In this document: piece after piece, positions 155 to 20,894 of the stretch
Layout: every line of letters begins with the position of its first letter
How positions within the stretch are numbered: the first letter of the stretch is position 1
Assembly (NCBI GenBank): GCA_003576855.1
Contig: QEVI01000006.1
Coordinates: 1 to 37,877 of the forward strand
DNA length: 37,877 bases
DNA from: Planctomycetota bacterium
GTDB lineage: Bacteria > Planctomycetota > Planctomycetia > Pirellulales > Lacipirellulaceae
Direction: 5' to 3'
Position numbers and translations under genes: made by a program
Notes under the pieces: generated by a model
The model's input: only the letters and a program-made list of their open reading frames with translations
Told to the model about the DNA's origin: nothing
The model's database searches: none

Positions 155-1045
155 ATGGGGGAATGTGTGCGCTTGGCGTACGCATCGAGCGCGACTGCGC
201 GACGGTGCTGCTACGCGATGGCAATGCTATCGGCCCTGGCCGGCGGGACCGCTAACGCCGCGGCCGGCGATCCTCGCGCCGCCTCGACGTCCGCCGAGGC
301 CCGCGACGACGCCCGGCGCCAGGTGCCCCTCGACCGCATCGACGCAAAATACCGCCAGGCCGTCGCCGACGTGCTGGCTGATCCGACGCTCTTCCGTCGG
401 ATGCCGACCAACGTCGTGGATTGCCGGCCAGAGCTGTTTACATTTCTGGCACAGAATCCTGAAGTGCTGGTCGAAATCTGGCGCAGTCTCGGCGTGAGCC
501 AGGTCGAACTGACGCGCATCGACGACGCGAGCTTTCGCATGAGCGACGGCGCCGGTACGACGGGCACGTTGGTCATCGTCGAGCAATCGTGCGACGCCGC
601 GGCCCAGAACCGCATCGTCATGTTCGCCGACGGCCGCTATGAGGGCAAACCGTTCGCCGCTCCCATTTCGGCCCATTGCGTGGTGATGCTGCGGAGCGGC
701 TCGGTTCGCGAAACCAACGGCAGGTATTACGTCGCGGCGCGACTCGACTCGTTCGTCAAGTTCGATCGCACCAGTCTCGAAGTCGTCGCCAAGGCGGTGC
801 ACCCGTTCGTCGGACAGACCGCCGATCGCAACTTCGCCGATACGTTGGCGTTTGTTTCCAACCTGTCGTACACCGCGGAAAAGCGGCCCGAGGCGATTGA
901 CCAGCTCGCCAAAGACATGCAAAACGTCGACGAGCCTCGGCGGAGGCAGCTCGTGCAGCTCGCCCGGCAGTGCGCCGAAGCGGGCCGCCTGTGGCGGCTC
1001 AGCCGCGCCGAGTCCGCGTCGGCTGATGCTCCTGCACGCCGGTAG
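155..1045 (+). CDS. Exported protein of unknown function
   Basis: A 296-residue protein that I do not recognise. The N-terminus has basic residues, then a short hydrophobic stretch at about 20-36 ending in Ala-rich AxA-like sites (around TANAAAG), so it is probably secreted. The mature part is soluble and mixed alpha/beta with no obvious catalytic motif; the C-terminal third is Arg/Glu/Ala-rich and probably helical. The ATG follows a G-rich Shine-Dalgarno stretch at 144-150; a second ATG about 21 codons in would shorten the signal peptide. The gene stands alone, with 184 bp before the next gene on the same strand. GC bias at third codon positions supports it as real. Confidence 0.7.
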   Translation: MGECVRLAYASSATARRCCYAMAMLSALAGGTANAAAGDPRAASTSAEARDDARRQVPLDRIDAKYRQAVADVLADPTLFRRMPTNVVDCRPELFTFLAQNPEVLVEIWRSLGVSQVELTRIDDASFRMSDGAGTTGTLVIVEQSCDAAAQNRIVMFADGRYEGKPFAAPISAHCVVMLRSGSVRETNGRYYVAARLDSFVKFDRTSLEVVAKAVHPFVGQTADRNFADTLAFVSNLSYTAEKRPEAIDQLAKDMQNVDEPRRRQLVQLARQCAEAGRLWRLSRAESASADAPARR

Positions 1046-13205: not shown

Positions 13206-13298
13206 GTAGCGTAGCCCTGTCGCTCTGCGAGAGGAGATCACGTGGCCCTCTTGCTCTTCGAGCGGCGATCATCTTGCGGAGCAAGATGCCTACGCTAC
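13206..13298. repeat. REP-like nested inverted-repeat element between convergent genes
   Basis: The outer arms are perfect 9-bp inverses: GTAGCGTAG (13206-13214) and CTACGCTAC (13290-13298). Inside are a CGCTC/GAGCG pair (13221-13225 with 13260-13264) and a perfect 7-bp hairpin, CATCTTG-CGGAG-CAAGATG (13270-13288). The right outer arm contains the TAG stop codon of the minus-strand gene. It may act as a transcript-end structure for both genes or be a dispersed intergenic repeat. Confidence 0.7.
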
Positions 13299-14038
13299 TC
13301 CATCGATATGGTCCGCGCCAGCGGCTGCAGCACCGCGTCGATGACGTAGTTGTCCACCACGTCGCGGCACACCTCCCACAGGCGATCGAGCGTGCCGGCG
13401 AACGACTGGTTCGGCCCCAGGCTGCCGTACTGTCGAGCGGTGACGTACACGCTCAGTTGCTCCTCCTGGAACTCGCTCGTGCGGATTTGATAGGCGTTGG
13501 TGCGGGCCTCGATATTAAAACGGCACTGCACGCGACATTCCTCGTCGAGCGCGAACGTCAGCGACGGTTCGTAGCTGATAATCGTACCGCCGGGGATCGT
13601 AGCCAGCCGCTCCAGCGCCGGACACACGCCCAAGGCCTCTGCGACCAGTTGATTGTGGTTTCCGCGGTACGTAAAATCGAAGCCCATCAACAGATCGAGC
13701 GCCTCGCAATCCAAGGCGCTGACGGACAAGGCGTAGGGCGCCAGTTCCAGCGTCAGGCGGTGCTGCGCGAGCGCCTCTTCGACGGTTTGCGGATTGACCT
13801 GACCTGAACAAATCCGCCGCTGTTCAATCGAGCACCAGCGGTAGGCCCCGCGGTCCTTGTCCTCTTCCAGCATGAAGTCGCTCTTATCGCGGGAATAGAA
13901 GTTCCGCATCTGCGGATACTGCTTCTGGATCTGCTCGAAATAGTGCAGGATCGTCTCGCGGCTGCTGGGGAGGTCCATCTCCGTGCTGAGGTTCATGTTG
14001 ATGTAGAAATCGTCGGCGAGCGAGCTGTAGGGATTCAT
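13295..14038 (-). CDS. Conserved-looking cytoplasmic protein of unknown function
   Basis: A 247-residue soluble protein with no signal peptide or membrane segment, which I cannot assign. It begins NPYSSLADDFYINMNLSTE and contains charged, aromatic-rich segments (FYSRDKSDFMLEEDKDRG, YRGNHNQLVAEALG) and beta-rich parts near the C-terminus. Its regular composition, absence of low complexity and strong upstream promoter argue for a real, expressed gene. The in-frame ORF extends 55 codons further upstream, but the ATG at 14038 is preferred because the promoter at 14147-14176 would otherwise lie inside the coding region. The 3' end overlaps an inverted-repeat element shared with the CheY-like gene. 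Confidence 0.75.
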   Translation of the reverse strand: MNPYSSLADDFYINMNLSTEMDLPSSRETILHYFEQIQKQYPQMRNFYSRDKSDFMLEEDKDRGAYRWCSIEQRRICSGQVNPQTVEEALAQHRLTLELAPYALSVSALDCEALDLLMGFDFTYRGNHNQLVAEALGVCPALERLATIPGGTIISYEPSLTFALDEECRVQCRFNIEARTNAYQIRTSEFQEEQLSVYVTARQYGSLGPNQSFAGTLDRLWEVCRDVVDNYVIDAVLQPLARTISME

Positions 14039-14146
14039 GCTGCGTGGCGTCCTTAGCAGTGCGGCCCAGGGCGAAACACGCCCCGATCGGCTGGCCCCGC
14101 CGTGGCCGTCCCAAAACATGAGCGACGCACGGACGGCAATCCCGTA

Positions 14147-14176
14147 AGTATAGGACCCTGCGCAAAGAAGTGTCAA
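14147..14176 (-). promoter_or_regulatory. Strong sigma70-type promoter for the gene at 13295-14038
   Basis: On the minus strand: TTGACA (14176-14171, perfect), an 18-bp spacer, TATACT (14152-14147, 5/6). This is the best consensus promoter I found in the window. The start point would be near 14140 and the 5' leader about 100 nt. It also argues for the shorter coding start at 14038. Confidence 0.6.
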
Positions 14177-14278
14177 AGACGCCGTCCACGCAAAACGGGC
14201 CAACCACGCCGGCTACCAGGAACTTCGGCCAATCCGCCGTCGTTGTGCCGCTGCGTTCTACTTCGCAGGCGCCGCGGC

Positions 14279-15478: not shown

Positions 15479-15720
15479 GGCACGCCTTGCCTTCCGGCGC
15501 CTCTCGAAACTCGCGCTGGGCGCCGGCTTGAACCGCACCATACCAGCCCCAGCCGATTTAGAAAGGCGTCGGGCTCGCGGCGCCCACAAAAAAACGCCCC
15601 GGAAACTCCCGCTGGACCGACCTGTTTCCCCGTATCGGCAGACCCGGCAACATGACCGTCATAGGCTTTCTCATGCGCCAGCCCGACGAACAGTTCCCAG
15701 CGGCGGCGCGAGGTGTTAAA

Positions 15721-16356
15721 ATGAACAGTTACATCGCCCATGCCGTAGTCGGTCATTTCTCCGGGAGCCCGATGATGGTCGCAAATACCGTGTCTCCGAC
15801 GAACTACGCCGTGGCGGCAGGTCCCAGCGAACTGGGGGCCATGGCCGTCGCGGTTCGAGAGGGCCGGCTGCTCGCGGTCGAATTCGGCCATCGCAGCGCT
15901 AGTCTCGCAACGGCTGCGCTGAAGCGGCGGACCTTTAATCGCCCCGGCACGCCTGCCGTGGTGGACTCGAGCGATTCCGACCGAGAGCTTGCTTACGACA
16001 TCCTCGATCGCTTGCAGCGCTATGCCGCTGGAGAACCGGCAGCGCTCGCCGAGATCGCCATCAGCGTCGATCACTTGTCAGCCTTTCAACGGCGGGTCGT
16101 GCAAGCCTGCCGGGCCATCCCGCGCGGCGAGCGCCGCACCTACGCTCAATTGGCCGCTGCCGCCGGCAGCCCGCGCGCGGCGCGGGCCGTCGGCCAGGTC
16201 ATGGCCGGCAATCGAACGCCGCTGGTGGTGCCGTGCCACCGCGTGGTTGCATCCGGCGGCGGACTGGGTGGGTTTTCAGCCCCGGAAGGGCTCGCCATGA
16301 AGCGTCGGCTGCTGTGCTTGGAGTCCCAGCAGCTTGCCGCAGCGGGGCGATCGTGA
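15721..16356 (+). CDS. ogt: Methylated-DNA-[protein]-cysteine S-methyltransferase
   Basis: A suicide repair protein that transfers alkyl groups from O6-alkylguanine to its own cysteine. The C-terminal domain is complete: FQRRVVQACRAIPRGERRTYAQLA (DNA-binding wing), the asparagine-hinge region GQVMAGNRTP, the acceptor cysteine in PCHRV (C172 of 211), and GGLGGFSAPEGLAMKRRLL. The N-terminal ribonuclease-like domain is short. The ATG at 15721 has GAGGTG 7 nt upstream; alternatives are 15652 and the tandem ATGs at 15772/15775 (GGGAG upstream). The stop codon overlaps the ATG of the next gene as TGATG, implying translational coupling to a secreted protease. That is an odd partner for a cytoplasmic DNA-repair enzyme. 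Confidence 0.9.
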   Translation: MNSYIAHAVVGHFSGSPMMVANTVSPTNYAVAAGPSELGAMAVAVREGRLLAVEFGHRSASLATAALKRRTFNRPGTPAVVDSSDSDRELAYDILDRLQRYAAGEPAALAEIAISVDHLSAFQRRVVQACRAIPRGERRTYAQLAAAAGSPRAARAVGQVMAGNRTPLVVPCHRVVASGGGLGGFSAPEGLAMKRRLLCLESQQLAAAGRS

Positions 16357-17657
16357 TGCACGCCAGGCGTCCTGTCGCCGAGGTATTCGCCGTGGCGGTC
16401 CGCCGCGCCCATGGGCAGCCCCCGGCAACCGCCATGCTCGCGGCCGTGCTGGCGGTCGTCACCGCCGGCGCCGCTGCGCGTGCTGTTACGATTCAAATGG
16501 ACTATCGGTATGACGTGAATGGGTTCTTCGACTCGGCGACGCCGGCCGGGGCCACGGCTCGGGCGAGCCTGGAGGCGGCGGCGGCGTTTTTCTCCGGCAT
16601 CATCAACGACTCGCTGAACGCCATTACAGCGCCCGGGGGAAGCAACATCTGGCGCCAGGTGATTATGCATCCCGGCACGGGGCAAACCAACTACGCCATC
16701 AGCTCGGCCGCCAGCGCCGCCCAGGAATTGGCGACGGGCTGGTCGCCCGCCAATGAATACCGCGATATCAGCGTGCCGGCCAATCGGATGATCATTTACG
16801 CCGGCGCTACGAATCTAAACAGCCTCGCCCTGGGCGGCACGGCCTACGCATCGTTCGGCACACCGGAGTTCAACAGCAACATCGCTCAGCGCGGCAAGTC
16901 GGCGAGCGAATACGCCGCCTGGGGAGGTTACGTGTCGTTCGACAACGCCGGCGTAAGCTGGCACGTCGATCACACGCAACCGGTTCCACCGGGTAAGAAC
17001 GACCTCTACTCGACGGCGCTGCACGAAATCGGACACGTCGTCGGCCTGGCGACCCATAACGGCCCGTGGAACCAGTACCAGGTCGGCGCCGTGTTTACCG
17101 GTCCGGAAGCCACCGCCGCTTGGAAAGCGGATGACCCGGCGGCGCCCGCCAGCGCCAGCGGCGTGCCGACGGTAAGCTCTGCCGATCGCCATTGGAAGGA
17201 CAATGCCGGCGGCACGGCCAGCGTGCGTTCGAAGATCATCGGCACGAACCAACTGCAGGAAGCGTCGATGGACCCCACGCTGCTGGTCGGCTCCCGCAAG
17301 CTCTTCACCAACGTCGATGGCAAGGCCCTGCGAGACATCGGCTGGACGATACCAAGCTCGGTCTTCGACGTCGCGCCGACCGCTTCGGCCGATTTCAACG
17401 GCGACGGGCAGGTGAACGGCGCGGACCTCGCGGTTTGGAAAGCCGCCTTCGGCCCAGTCGGAACTGCCAGCGCCGACGGCGACGGCGATTCCGACGGCAA
17501 CGACTTCCTGCTATGGCAGCGGCAGTTCGGCACTGCGCCGCAGATGGCGGCCTCCATGGCGGCGCCGGAGCCTGGCGGCGGCGCAGCCGCGGTTTGGTGT
17601 TTGCTCGCAACAGCCTTGCGGCGGCGGAGGTTGTCGCGGCGAGCCGCGTTCATCTGA
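16356..17657 (+). CDS. Secreted metzincin-like zinc protease with dockerin-like segment and PEP-CTERM-like end
   Basis: A 433-residue exported protein. The ATG at 16356 lies within TGATG, overlapping the methyltransferase stop by one base. A signal peptide with a long N-region ends near residue 44 (LAAVLAVVTAGAAARA). The zinc site is HEIGHVVGLATH (H223, E224, H227, G230). A methionine-turn-like segment ASMDPTLL and the family ending KALRDIGW follow, as in metzincin-related proteins common in PEP-CTERM bacteria. After residue 345 come dockerin-like calcium loops (NGDGQVNGAD, DGDGDSDGND), then APEPGG, a short hydrophobic stretch and RRRRLSRR, a degenerate PEP-CTERM signal. It probably cleaves extracellular protein at the cell surface. 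The third zinc ligand is not in the canonical place. Confidence 0.83.
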   Translation: MHARRPVAEVFAVAVRRAHGQPPATAMLAAVLAVVTAGAAARAVTIQMDYRYDVNGFFDSATPAGATARASLEAAAAFFSGIINDSLNAITAPGGSNIWRQVIMHPGTGQTNYAISSAASAAQELATGWSPANEYRDISVPANRMIIYAGATNLNSLALGGTAYASFGTPEFNSNIAQRGKSASEYAAWGGYVSFDNAGVSWHVDHTQPVPPGKNDLYSTALHEIGHVVGLATHNGPWNQYQVGAVFTGPEATAAWKADDPAAPASASGVPTVSSADRHWKDNAGGTASVRSKIIGTNQLQEASMDPTLLVGSRKLFTNVDGKALRDIGWTIPSSVFDVAPTASADFNGDGQVNGADLAVWKAAFGPVGTASADGDGDSDGNDFLLWQRQFGTAPQMAASMAAPEPGGGAAAVWCLLATALRRRRLSRRAAFI

Positions 17658-17717: not shown

Positions 17718-20700
17718 CTAGGCCGCTTCCAGCGGCCGCATGTGGGCCGCGTTCTTGGCCCACAGGGCGATCCGCTCGGCGCTGGGCGCCTTGCCGCTTC
17801 GCAGCAGCCGGCGCCCTTCAGGAAGCCGGCACAGGTTTCGGACGCGGCGTACCACCTCCGCCGGCGGCGCGGCAGCCAACTGCGAGGGCTCCGTGAAACC
17901 GGCCGCCACCAGCAGCCTGGCCCCACAGCTACGAAGCTCCGGAATGCAGCAGGCCAGCCGCGCCTCGCGCTGCCAGCGCAGGACGGTTTCCGGCGTTACG
18001 CGCGGCTCGCCGATTTCTTCCGCCGTAGAATCCGGGTTGGCCTGAAGAAGGTCGGCGACCGTGCGGATTCCGACTCGCCCCAACCGCTCAGCCGCCGCCG
18101 GGCCGATCGACGGCGCCTCTTCAACCGAGCTGTTTCGCCCCAACAAATACCGCAACGGACGCCTACCGCGGGGCCGGCCGGCCGCGCTCAGCTTCACGGC
18201 CGGCGCCGGGGCGGATATCGTCCGTTGGACGGCGACTTTCTTGGCGTCGTCGGTCCATCGGCGGCGCACGCGGGCCTGCAACCAGCGCTCCCGCTGGCGC
18301 AGCGCCGACCGCTGTAATTCCGCAAGTCGCTCAGGTGTGAAGCGGTCGCGAAGCGCTGCAAAGCGCCGACCGCCGCTGCCTTCGAGAAACCGCTCCACCG
18401 ACTCGGCGAGCAGCCGCCCGTCGACGGTGTAAAGCGCTTCCGGCGAATCGATTTCACATGCGGCCAAGACCTGCGCGTCGTTCAGCGTCAGCCCCGGAAC
18501 AAAACACATGAGGCTCATGTGAACCTGCCAGAGCCGCACCGTTTCGGAAGTAATGCCGTGCCGGTTCAATGTCGCGGCGACGTCGGCGGCGTCGGCGATT
18601 AGCAGCTCGTGTACGGTGTTGATCCCCAGCCCGCGGAACACGCTGGCCGTGTCGTTTCCAAGTACCGGAAAATCGGCGATCGATGCGTCTTCGTCCAGGA
18701 AGTACACCTCCGGCTCGTCCGCGCCGCGAGTCCATTCGCCGGCGACCCGCGGCTGCGGCGACTCGCCCACCGTTTCACGGACCAAGCGCAACGTGGCGCC
18801 GCCGAGCGACGGCGACGCCGGCGCCGCAACGACCGGCGGTTCACGCTTCGGCGGGGCCGGCTGATTTACGAAGCACAGGTCGTGTACCGGGGTCCCCAGC
18901 GATTGGCAGCGGCGCGCCGCCTCGCGATCCGCGGTAAACACGATCACCTGGCGGCCGTGGCTGGCGAACTCGTGGAGCACGCCCGCCATCGCCAAGGCGC
19001 TGCGAGCGTCCTGGCGCAGGAACGGCTCGTCGAGAAGTAGCGGCAAATCGACGCCGCGGCTGCTCAGCGACGACGTTAGGGCGAGCGTCAGGGCCAAGTA
19101 CAACTGATCTTGCTGCGCCCCGCTCAGTTGATCAATCGCCAGGCTCCGGCCGTCGCGGTCAATGATTTGCGCCTGGCGACTTCCGCCGCCGCGGCGAATC
19201 TCCAGAAGGCGACCGCCGCTGAGTTGCGCCAGCGCGTCGGACGCCTTCCACAGTCGCCGGTGCGGCAAGATCGGCATAGCGGCCGGAACAGACGGCTCGC
19301 CCGAGACGACGCGGTTGATCTGGTCTTCCAGCCGCGCAAGTTCCGCGCGCAGCTCATCGACGTCGGAGCCGCTAACCGCCTGGCCGCGCTGCCGCTGGAG
19401 ACTGCGCCACTGGGCGTCGAGCTCGTCGATGTCAGCCCGCAGGGCGTCGCATTCCTGCCGAACCTGATCGCGCTTGCGCTCCAGCGCCGCACGCTCGACC
19501 TGCATGGTCTCTTCCAAGCTGCGGCGGTTTCCGCCGGCTAGCAACATCGCGGCGGCGTCGCGTACGAACTGCTCATGCCCGTGACAGCGGCAATGGTTCG
19601 CCGCCGGCGCCTGCGGCGCCGGCGCCGTCGTCCGCTGTGCAAGCTGCTCTTCGTGCACCAACGATTGGCGGCGTTCGAGCAGGTGTTCAAGCTGTTCGCG
19701 GAAATCGGCCTGCGCCCGCGCAAGTTGACGGCTTTCGGCATGGAGCTGCACGCGGCGGACCGCTCGTTCCTGCTCGGTCACTTGCCCGCAGAATGCGTAT
19801 AACTGATGCCGCAGCATCTGGGCGACCGGGAGGAGCCGCAGGCTATAATCGCGGCCGACGTCGCGGCCAGGTTCATGCGATCGAGCCAGTTGTGCAACCT
19901 CCGCATCGAGCTCGTCCAGCAGGCATTCAAACACGCCTACCGCGGCCCGCTGGTCGGCCAGGATGCTGGCACTGTCGGCCGTGCCGTCCGGATGCACTTC
20001 CGCGAGATCTCGGCGCACGGCCGCTTCGCGCGATTGCAGCTCGGCGAGCGTCTGCCGCGTGCGGCTGATCGTTGCGTCCAGCTCTTCGAGCTGCTGGCGG
20101 TGCTTCGCCGGTTCGGTCAACGGATTGCGGTGACCGTCCGACGCCAGCGCCAGGTAGCGGAGCCGCGATTCAACCGCGGCGAGCTCGATTTCCACCGCGC
20201 GGAGTCTGGTCAGGCGTTCCTCGGCCTGGCCGCGAAGCGCGCCAAGCTTCGCCTCGAGCTCGTGCGACTGGCGCTCAAGCTCGGCGCTTTCTCGGCGCCG
20301 AGCCGACAACTGCAGCTCGATGGCCCGGGCCGTTTCGTCGCGGCGGCGAACGAGCTGGTCGATGCCGGCCGAAGTCGCCGGGGCTCGATCGACGCGCGGC
20401 GGCCCGCCGCCGTCGGCGGCCGGCTTCGTCGAGTCCGCATGAAGCGCAGCGGCGTACAGCCGAGCGAAATCCGGCGCCAGCAACGCCGCGGCGCGCGGCG
20501 CGCGGGCGAAGTCCACGACGTACAACTCGGCCAGCAGCGACGGCGCCAGATCGTACAACAATTCGCGCACGGTGCGCCCGTCGACGGCGGCGCCGTTAAC
20601 CGCGGCGATCGACAGCCGTCCCGTCGCCGTGCCGTCGCGATGTCGCCGCAGCAGAAACCGGCCTTGCGGAGCATCGACCTCGATCGAACCTTCGACCAGA

Positions 20701-20894
20701 TGCGCGTTTCCAAGGGGCTCGGGCCGCGCAGGGCCCTCGGCCTTGCCGTACATCAAGTGCGCTGCAAGCTGCGCGATCGTGCTCTTACCGCTGAGCGGCG
20801 GACCGAAAACGACGTTGAGCTGCGGCTGCAGCCGATCGACCGACAGCGCCCGCCCCCCCTCGTGACCGGCCAGATGCAGTTGTGTGATTCTCAT
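17718..20894 (-). CDS. SMC/Rad50-like (YhaN-type) ATPase with HCRCHGH motif and duplicated DUF4332-like tail
   Basis: A 1058-residue protein. It starts MRITQLHLAGHEGG, as YhaN-type AAA ATPases do, with Walker A GPPLSGKST (31-39). Two long coiled-coil stretches span about 185-535. Between them is a Cys/His motif HCRCHGH (C435, C437, H438, H440) in the position of the Rad50 zinc hook, but not a canonical CxxC. The C-lobe has ABC signature LSGAQQ (590-595) and Walker B LLLDEP (619-624; D622, E623). A linker (about 690-730) leads to two similar units, about 733-860 and 918-1055, of DUF4332/helix-hairpin-helix character. The ATG at 20894 has AAGGA upstream; the longer ORF start lacks support. YhaN/SbcC relatives usually pair with a nuclease, and none is adjacent. 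A role in DNA-end or chromosome maintenance is inferred. Confidence 0.85.
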   Translation of the reverse strand: MRITQLHLAGHEGGRALSVDRLQPQLNVVFGPPLSGKSTIAQLAAHLMYGKAEGPARPEPLGNAHLVEGSIEVDAPQGRFLLRRHRDGTATGRLSIAAVNGAAVDGRTVRELLYDLAPSLLAELYVVDFARAPRAAALLAPDFARLYAAALHADSTKPAADGGGPPRVDRAPATSAGIDQLVRRRDETARAIELQLSARRRESAELERQSHELEAKLGALRGQAEERLTRLRAVEIELAAVESRLRYLALASDGHRNPLTEPAKHRQQLEELDATISRTRQTLAELQSREAAVRRDLAEVHPDGTADSASILADQRAAVGVFECLLDELDAEVAQLARSHEPGRDVGRDYSLRLLPVAQMLRHQLYAFCGQVTEQERAVRRVQLHAESRQLARAQADFREQLEHLLERRQSLVHEEQLAQRTTAPAPQAPAANHCRCHGHEQFVRDAAAMLLAGGNRRSLEETMQVERAALERKRDQVRQECDALRADIDELDAQWRSLQRQRGQAVSGSDVDELRAELARLEDQINRVVSGEPSVPAAMPILPHRRLWKASDALAQLSGGRLLEIRRGGGSRQAQIIDRDGRSLAIDQLSGAQQDQLYLALTLALTSSLSSRGVDLPLLLDEPFLRQDARSALAMAGVLHEFASHGRQVIVFTADREAARRCQSLGTPVHDLCFVNQPAPPKREPPVVAAPASPSLGGATLRLVRETVGESPQPRVAGEWTRGADEPEVYFLDEDASIADFPVLGNDTASVFRGLGINTVHELLIADAADVAATLNRHGITSETVRLWQVHMSLMCFVPGLTLNDAQVLAACEIDSPEALYTVDGRLLAESVERFLEGSGGRRFAALRDRFTPERLAELQRSALRQRERWLQARVRRRWTDDAKKVAVQRTISAPAPAVKLSAAGRPRGRRPLRYLLGRNSSVEEAPSIGPAAAERLGRVGIRTVADLLQANPDSTAEEIGEPRVTPETVLRWQREARLACCIPELRSCGARLLVAAGFTEPSQLAAAPPAEVVRRVRNLCRLPEGRRLLRSGKAPSAERIALWAKNAAHMRPLEAA

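Follow-up and report, generated by a model that had tools for sequence, protein, structure and literature searches.

A conserved Cys/His motif, (H)CxCxxH, lies in a mid-arm elbow of a Rad50/YhaN-like ATPase from a Lacipirellulaceae planctomycete. The gene is encoded in the window, the whole 37,877-nucleotide stretch of DNA analysed here. What the evidence supports best is a conserved metal-type site at the elbow, where metal would be bound. More tentatively, with a probability of roughly 0.45, the motif would be a second zinc-hook-like metal site that is shared between chains and links two protomers. Rad50-type proteins join at their arm tips via a zinc hook. Sister lineages that have lost one site or the other are natural variants for asking what matters when coiled-coil ATPases handle DNA: where the joint lies, the metal, or linkage as such. 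The window protein may itself have a role in DNA maintenance. A search of the open PMC subset returned nothing relevant on elbow zinc sites in SMC proteins, on DUF4332 or on planctomycete Rad50 hooks.

The open reading frame starts with ATG at 20894 on the minus strand, and its head and C-terminal features are as follows.

17718..20894, minus strand: coiled-coil ATPase of Rad50/YhaN-like type, 1058 aa, ending in tandem DUF4332 (helix-hairpin-helix) domains (ORF, Pfam, Foldseek, 35 family orthologues)
20778..20804, minus strand: Walker A, GPPLSGKST, residues 31-39 (sequence)
19110..19127, minus strand: ABC signature, LSGAQQ, residues 590-595; orthologue consensus LSPAQ (sequence)
19023..19040, minus strand: Walker B, LLLDEP, residues 619-624 (sequence)
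18381..18698, minus strand: first C-terminal all-helical DUF4332/HHH-like domain, about residues 733-838 (Pfam and AlphaFold2 predicted helices)
17745..18113, minus strand: second DUF4332/HHH domain, about residues 928-1050 (Pfam)

All three nucleotide-binding motifs stand at the residues given by the initial annotation, and its assignment of the protein to the Rad50/SMC class is backed by Foldseek, by a family profile against the PDB and by PADLOC matches. The top Foldseek match of the AlphaFold2 model is Rad50 (7zr1, 1.6e-13), followed by LmuB, MukB and SMC, and a profile of 30 family members matches Rad50 heads in the PDB (1.8e-8). A PDB sequence search with the window protein alone gives no match, nor does a search of a plasmid collection. 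Pfam matches DUF4332 (PF14229) over two stretches (3.8e-25, 88.9 bits against a cut-off of 23.2) and HHH_5 in the C-terminus (1.4e-7); AAA_27 matches under its cut-off (20.4 bits against 22). Sequence and predicted structure together support a Rad50-class coiled-coil ABC ATPase.

The position of the motif along the arm follows from these features.

20130..20372, minus strand: proximal coil of arm 1, predicted helix 175-255 (AlphaFold2)
20112..20129, minus strand: break in arm 1, residues 256-261, probably opposite the arm 2 elbow linker (low-pLDDT break in the AlphaFold2 model; residues 246-280 tolerate indels, the coils do not)
19881..20111, minus strand: distal coil of arm 1, predicted helices 262-299 and 309-338 (AlphaFold2)
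19827..19880, minus strand: coiled-coil apex turn, residues 339-356, with a CxC(xxxH) site in relatives, here decayed to DVGRDYS (AlphaFold2, arm lengths, alignment)
19635..19859, minus strand: distal coil of arm 2, predicted helix 346-420 (AlphaFold2)
19788..19790, minus strand: C369, in the distal helix (alignment)
19527..19634, minus strand: elbow linker, residues 421-456, missing or shortened in apex-only orthologues (alignment and AlphaFold2)
19575..19595, minus strand: (H)CxCxxH motif, HCRCHGH, residues 434-440 (sequence, orthologue alignment)
19305..19526, minus strand: proximal coil of arm 2, predicted helices 457-507 and 510-530 (AlphaFold2)

The initial annotation had placed the Cys/His segment at the hook, at the coiled-coil apex. 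That placement fails: the arm turns at about residues 339-356, and the motif lies in the linker 421-456, between helices 346-420 and 457-507. The AlphaFold2 model of the window protein has a pLDDT of 80.7 and a pTM of 0.39, which makes its relative domain placement unreliable; it predicts a turn at 339-345 and an uncertain stretch at 421-456 that holds the motif. In the model of an apex-only orthologue, helices 170-295, 307-332, 342-412, 425-467 and 470-490 are predicted, with a linker at 413-424 and a turn at 333-341 that bears CVC (340-342), followed by His 346. Most coil segments have a constant length between invariant anchors (61, 18, 23, 53 and 16 residues), and so does the apex turn (19 residues in all proteins); indels are absent or almost absent from the arm segments, and length varies in the hinge segments 246-280, 298-314 and 409-465. 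Only a turn near residue 340 gives two arms of matching length, about 160 and 150 residues, so the apex is placed there. An apex at residues 339-356, about 90 residues before the motif, and a motif in the mid-arm elbow are thus well supported by model and alignment. In arm 1, the low-confidence break (255-261) is about as far from the apex as the elbow linker is, so by these lengths the two breaks would sit opposite one another and form an elbow. Between that linker and the apex lie about 70 helical residues, roughly 100 angstroms by the standard helix rise.

Comparison with orthologues argues that the Cys/His motif is not there by chance. The genomes of the family gave 36 orthologues, of which L023 is a fragment; a single-protein query for related loci gave nothing, and an alignment query gave the named relatives. 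HCRCHGH was found at residues 434-440, as first annotated. The annotated arrangement, CxCHxH, for which the invariance of C435, C437, H438 and H440 was the proposed test, holds in part: the motif is a conserved, non-canonical Cys/His motif, and C435, C437 and H440 are present in 19/19 close orthologues at about 43-57% identity, but H438 is His only in the window and mostly D/E/Q elsewhere, so that the pattern is (H)CxCxxH. H434 is present in 18/19. By conservation, C435 and C437 rank 7-8 among 1058 columns; the codons of the motif vary synonymously and the residues between the two Cys are variable. P430 and F443 are invariant in the 19 elbow-clade orthologues. In a second order of the class, 18/30 homologues have CxCxxH and 11 more keep the C and the H, which brings CxCxxH to 37/65 proteins over two orders. 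A scan for the DNA pattern of HCxCxxHxxF over the order gave mostly scattered hits, and a profile of the elbow insert found no match in the PDB. A functionless insert or chance motif would fit the fact that apex-only orthologues manage without it, yet invariance at this divergence and over two orders, with synonymous codon changes, had already disfavoured that explanation and leaves it barely credible. Elsewhere in the protein, residue 279 (window 20058-20060) differs between the groups: 18/19 of the window's clade have Cys there and most apex-only orthologues have Trp, with Thr in the window itself.

The spacing of the ligands bears on whether one chain or two would supply them. H434, C435, C437 and H440 (or three of them and water) could form an intrachain zinc knuckle that binds one metal and only stiffens the elbow or sets its angle. 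In the window's clade a single chain offers four potential ligands over a span of seven residues and has a linker of nearly constant length; both agree with such a knuckle, as does a site at the elbow, not the tip. Either C,C,H or H,C,C,H could be satisfied within one chain, which counts against a hook. However, position 434 is variable in the outgroup (Y,H,G,L,C,F,R), which leaves three ligands, and adjacent H-C and C-x-C are strained for a single tetrahedral site; the knuckle is a possible but not a likely account. The low pLDDT of the motif segment in the model, with block means of about 57-63, also counts against a hook.

Members of the family share gene neighbours as well as the ATPase. 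A gene of the O6-methylguanine-methyltransferase type and a conserved hypothetical gene adjoin it across the family, in elbow and apex-only groups alike, and this common synteny indicates that the two kinds of protein are orthologues. In the window, hypothetical, O6-methylguanine-methyltransferase-type and matrixin-like genes at 13298-14212 (minus strand) and 15652-17657 (plus strand) adjoin the ATPase, as in much of the family. Many apex-only orthologues (L033-L036, L044, L048, L049) are immediately preceded by a GGDEF (diguanylate cyclase) gene of the same orientation; none was found beside the ATPase gene in the elbow clade. Among the scanned neighbours of the window gene there is no Mre11/SbcD-like gene and no metallophosphoesterase gene, unlike some YhaN paralogues, where a metallophosphoesterase accounts for 2/4 neighbours tested. 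If the partner is encoded at another locus, it would have to dock somewhere on the ATPase, and the elbow might be a zinc finger that binds a partner or DNA and docks a nuclease or regulatory subunit. The residues around the ligands, variable except for P427, P430 and F443, leave little conserved interface for such docking, which makes this explanation improbable.

The distribution of the two sites is most simply explained by an ancestor that had both. The tree of 65 proteins was computed without the motif columns and rooted with 30 full-length homologues from another order of the class; a YhaN paralogue was dropped as root because it gave one very long outgroup branch. In Lacipirellulaceae, one clade of 19, including the window (support 100/100), is elbow-only and spans genera including Lacipirellula, Adhaeretor and Bythopirellula, and 16 other proteins are apex-only. 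The remaining 17 of the 36 orthologues are without the motif-bearing segment, L023 ending upstream of it; apex CxC is present at 345-347 in 17/17 of these, and H351 in 16/17. Residues 345-351 occupy the Rad50 hook position, where 16 relatives in the tree have CxC (usually CxCxxxH), as do 13 outgroup proteins; the window reads DVGRDYS there, with no CxxC hook at the apex.

The outgroup sets the polarity of these changes. Both apex CxC and elbow CxCxxH are present in 13/30 of its proteins, 90 residues apart in 12/13 and 85 in one, and the matching columns in the window are likewise 90 apart. Five further outgroup proteins have the elbow motif with the apex lost or altered, and a clade of 12 is without apex CxC, 11/12 of them keeping C435 and H440 without C437. 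Among proteins without apex CxC, all but L177 retain at least the elbow C and H, and the elbow segment is missing solely where apex CxC is retained. Since 13 outgroup proteins have both, the two sites are most simply ancestral, the window's clade having lost apex C347 and its sisters the elbow segment. Gain of the elbow motif in the window's clade, with only the apex CxC ancestral, was rejected once the two-site outgroup proteins were found. Against a hook stand the few events on which differential loss rests: change counts on the tree are 5 for the apex and 2 for the elbow, and the 2 independent pairs available for testing whether the sites change together are too few to be informative. Monophyly of the apex-only group has weak support (60), and one or two elbow losses are possible there. 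The Lacipirellula relatives L002-L005 also speak against a hook at the elbow, as they keep an apex CVGC (CxxC), aligned to window 345-348, alongside the elbow motif.

Two further observations concern the ligands. L150 (967 aa) lacks about 90 residues around the apex, and its elbow sequence is CQCPTCG (residues 370-376, the same place as in L166), CxCxxC replacing CxCxxH with a Cys at position 440. Zinc ligands typically show such Cys-for-His exchanges where a position is otherwise invariant, and the exchange in L150 suggests that residue 440 is a metal ligand. CPTCG has the same form as the canonical CPxCG hook, a known intermolecular hook sequence, which counts against an intrachain knuckle. 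L150 is, however, a single MAG sequence, and its near relative L153 is without either site, which weakens the case for a hook. A thiol redox switch, a CxC disulfide instead of a metal site, would accord with two invariant Cys two residues apart at both sites; conservation of H440 along with the Cys and the metal-ligand type of exchange in L150 make it very unlikely. Of the homologues that have an elbow Cys/His site, 48/48 carry C369, against 1/17 of those that lack the site, a pattern confounded by a single main loss. On a straight helix, C369 would be about 75 angstroms from the elbow of its own chain, too far for a common metal, so that, if a ligand, it would need to be supplied by another chain.

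Joining of two protomers is proposed because the elbow site alternates with the apex site and because the CPxCG variant exists. In the shared-site reading, HCxCxxH would hold a metal, Zn2+ being the most likely, in a flexible elbow separated from the arm tip by about 70 helical residues. The ancestral arm would have borne a Cys site at either end of its distal rod: CxC at the apex, the place of the Rad50 CxxC hook, and CxCxxH at the elbow. Two chains would give Cys/His ligands to the shared metal and so link two ATPase protomers. With this link the window's lineage would have been able to do without the apex site, the elbow hook being partly interchangeable with the apex hook. A fuller proposal, which we consider rather unlikely, has two interchangeable metal hooks per arm, at tip and elbow 90 residues apart, with C435/C437/H440, possibly together with C369 of the other chain, clasping the protomers mid-arm and lineages having kept one or the other; such a clasp would give a dimer geometry unlike the tip-to-tip Rad50 hook.

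The CXXC zinc hook is an established dimerisation module of Rad50 (PMC9569753, PMC6969161). Like Rad50/SbcC, the window protein has an ABC ATPase head, with Walker A, signature and Walker B, that an antiparallel coiled coil divides, and its relatives bear a Cys pair at the coil apex. Unlike Rad50/SbcC, its family spaces the Cys as CxC, not CxxC, and the window protein has lost the apex site, has a Cys/His motif mid-arm and has C-terminal DUF4332 domains. YhaN AAA_27 paralogues have similar heads (E about 1e-7 to 1e-14) and share the AAA_27 match, sub-cut-off in the window; those of related genomes are longer (about 1100-1300 aa), and 0/8 have CxC or CxxC. In L123, L125 and L175, from one genus, ORFs of 1253-1422 aa combine YhaN-like and DUF4332 parts with a hydrophobic stretch resembling two transmembrane helices inside the coiled-coil region. 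LmuB of Lamassu is the top PADLOC match of the window protein (2e-12) and is among its high Foldseek matches; neither lmuA nor lmuC was recognised among the neighbours scanned by Pfam. Many LmuB carry CPxCG hooks (PMC10586767). LmuB is about 650 aa long (PMC10586767), unlike the window protein, which has 1058 aa and DUF4332 domains.
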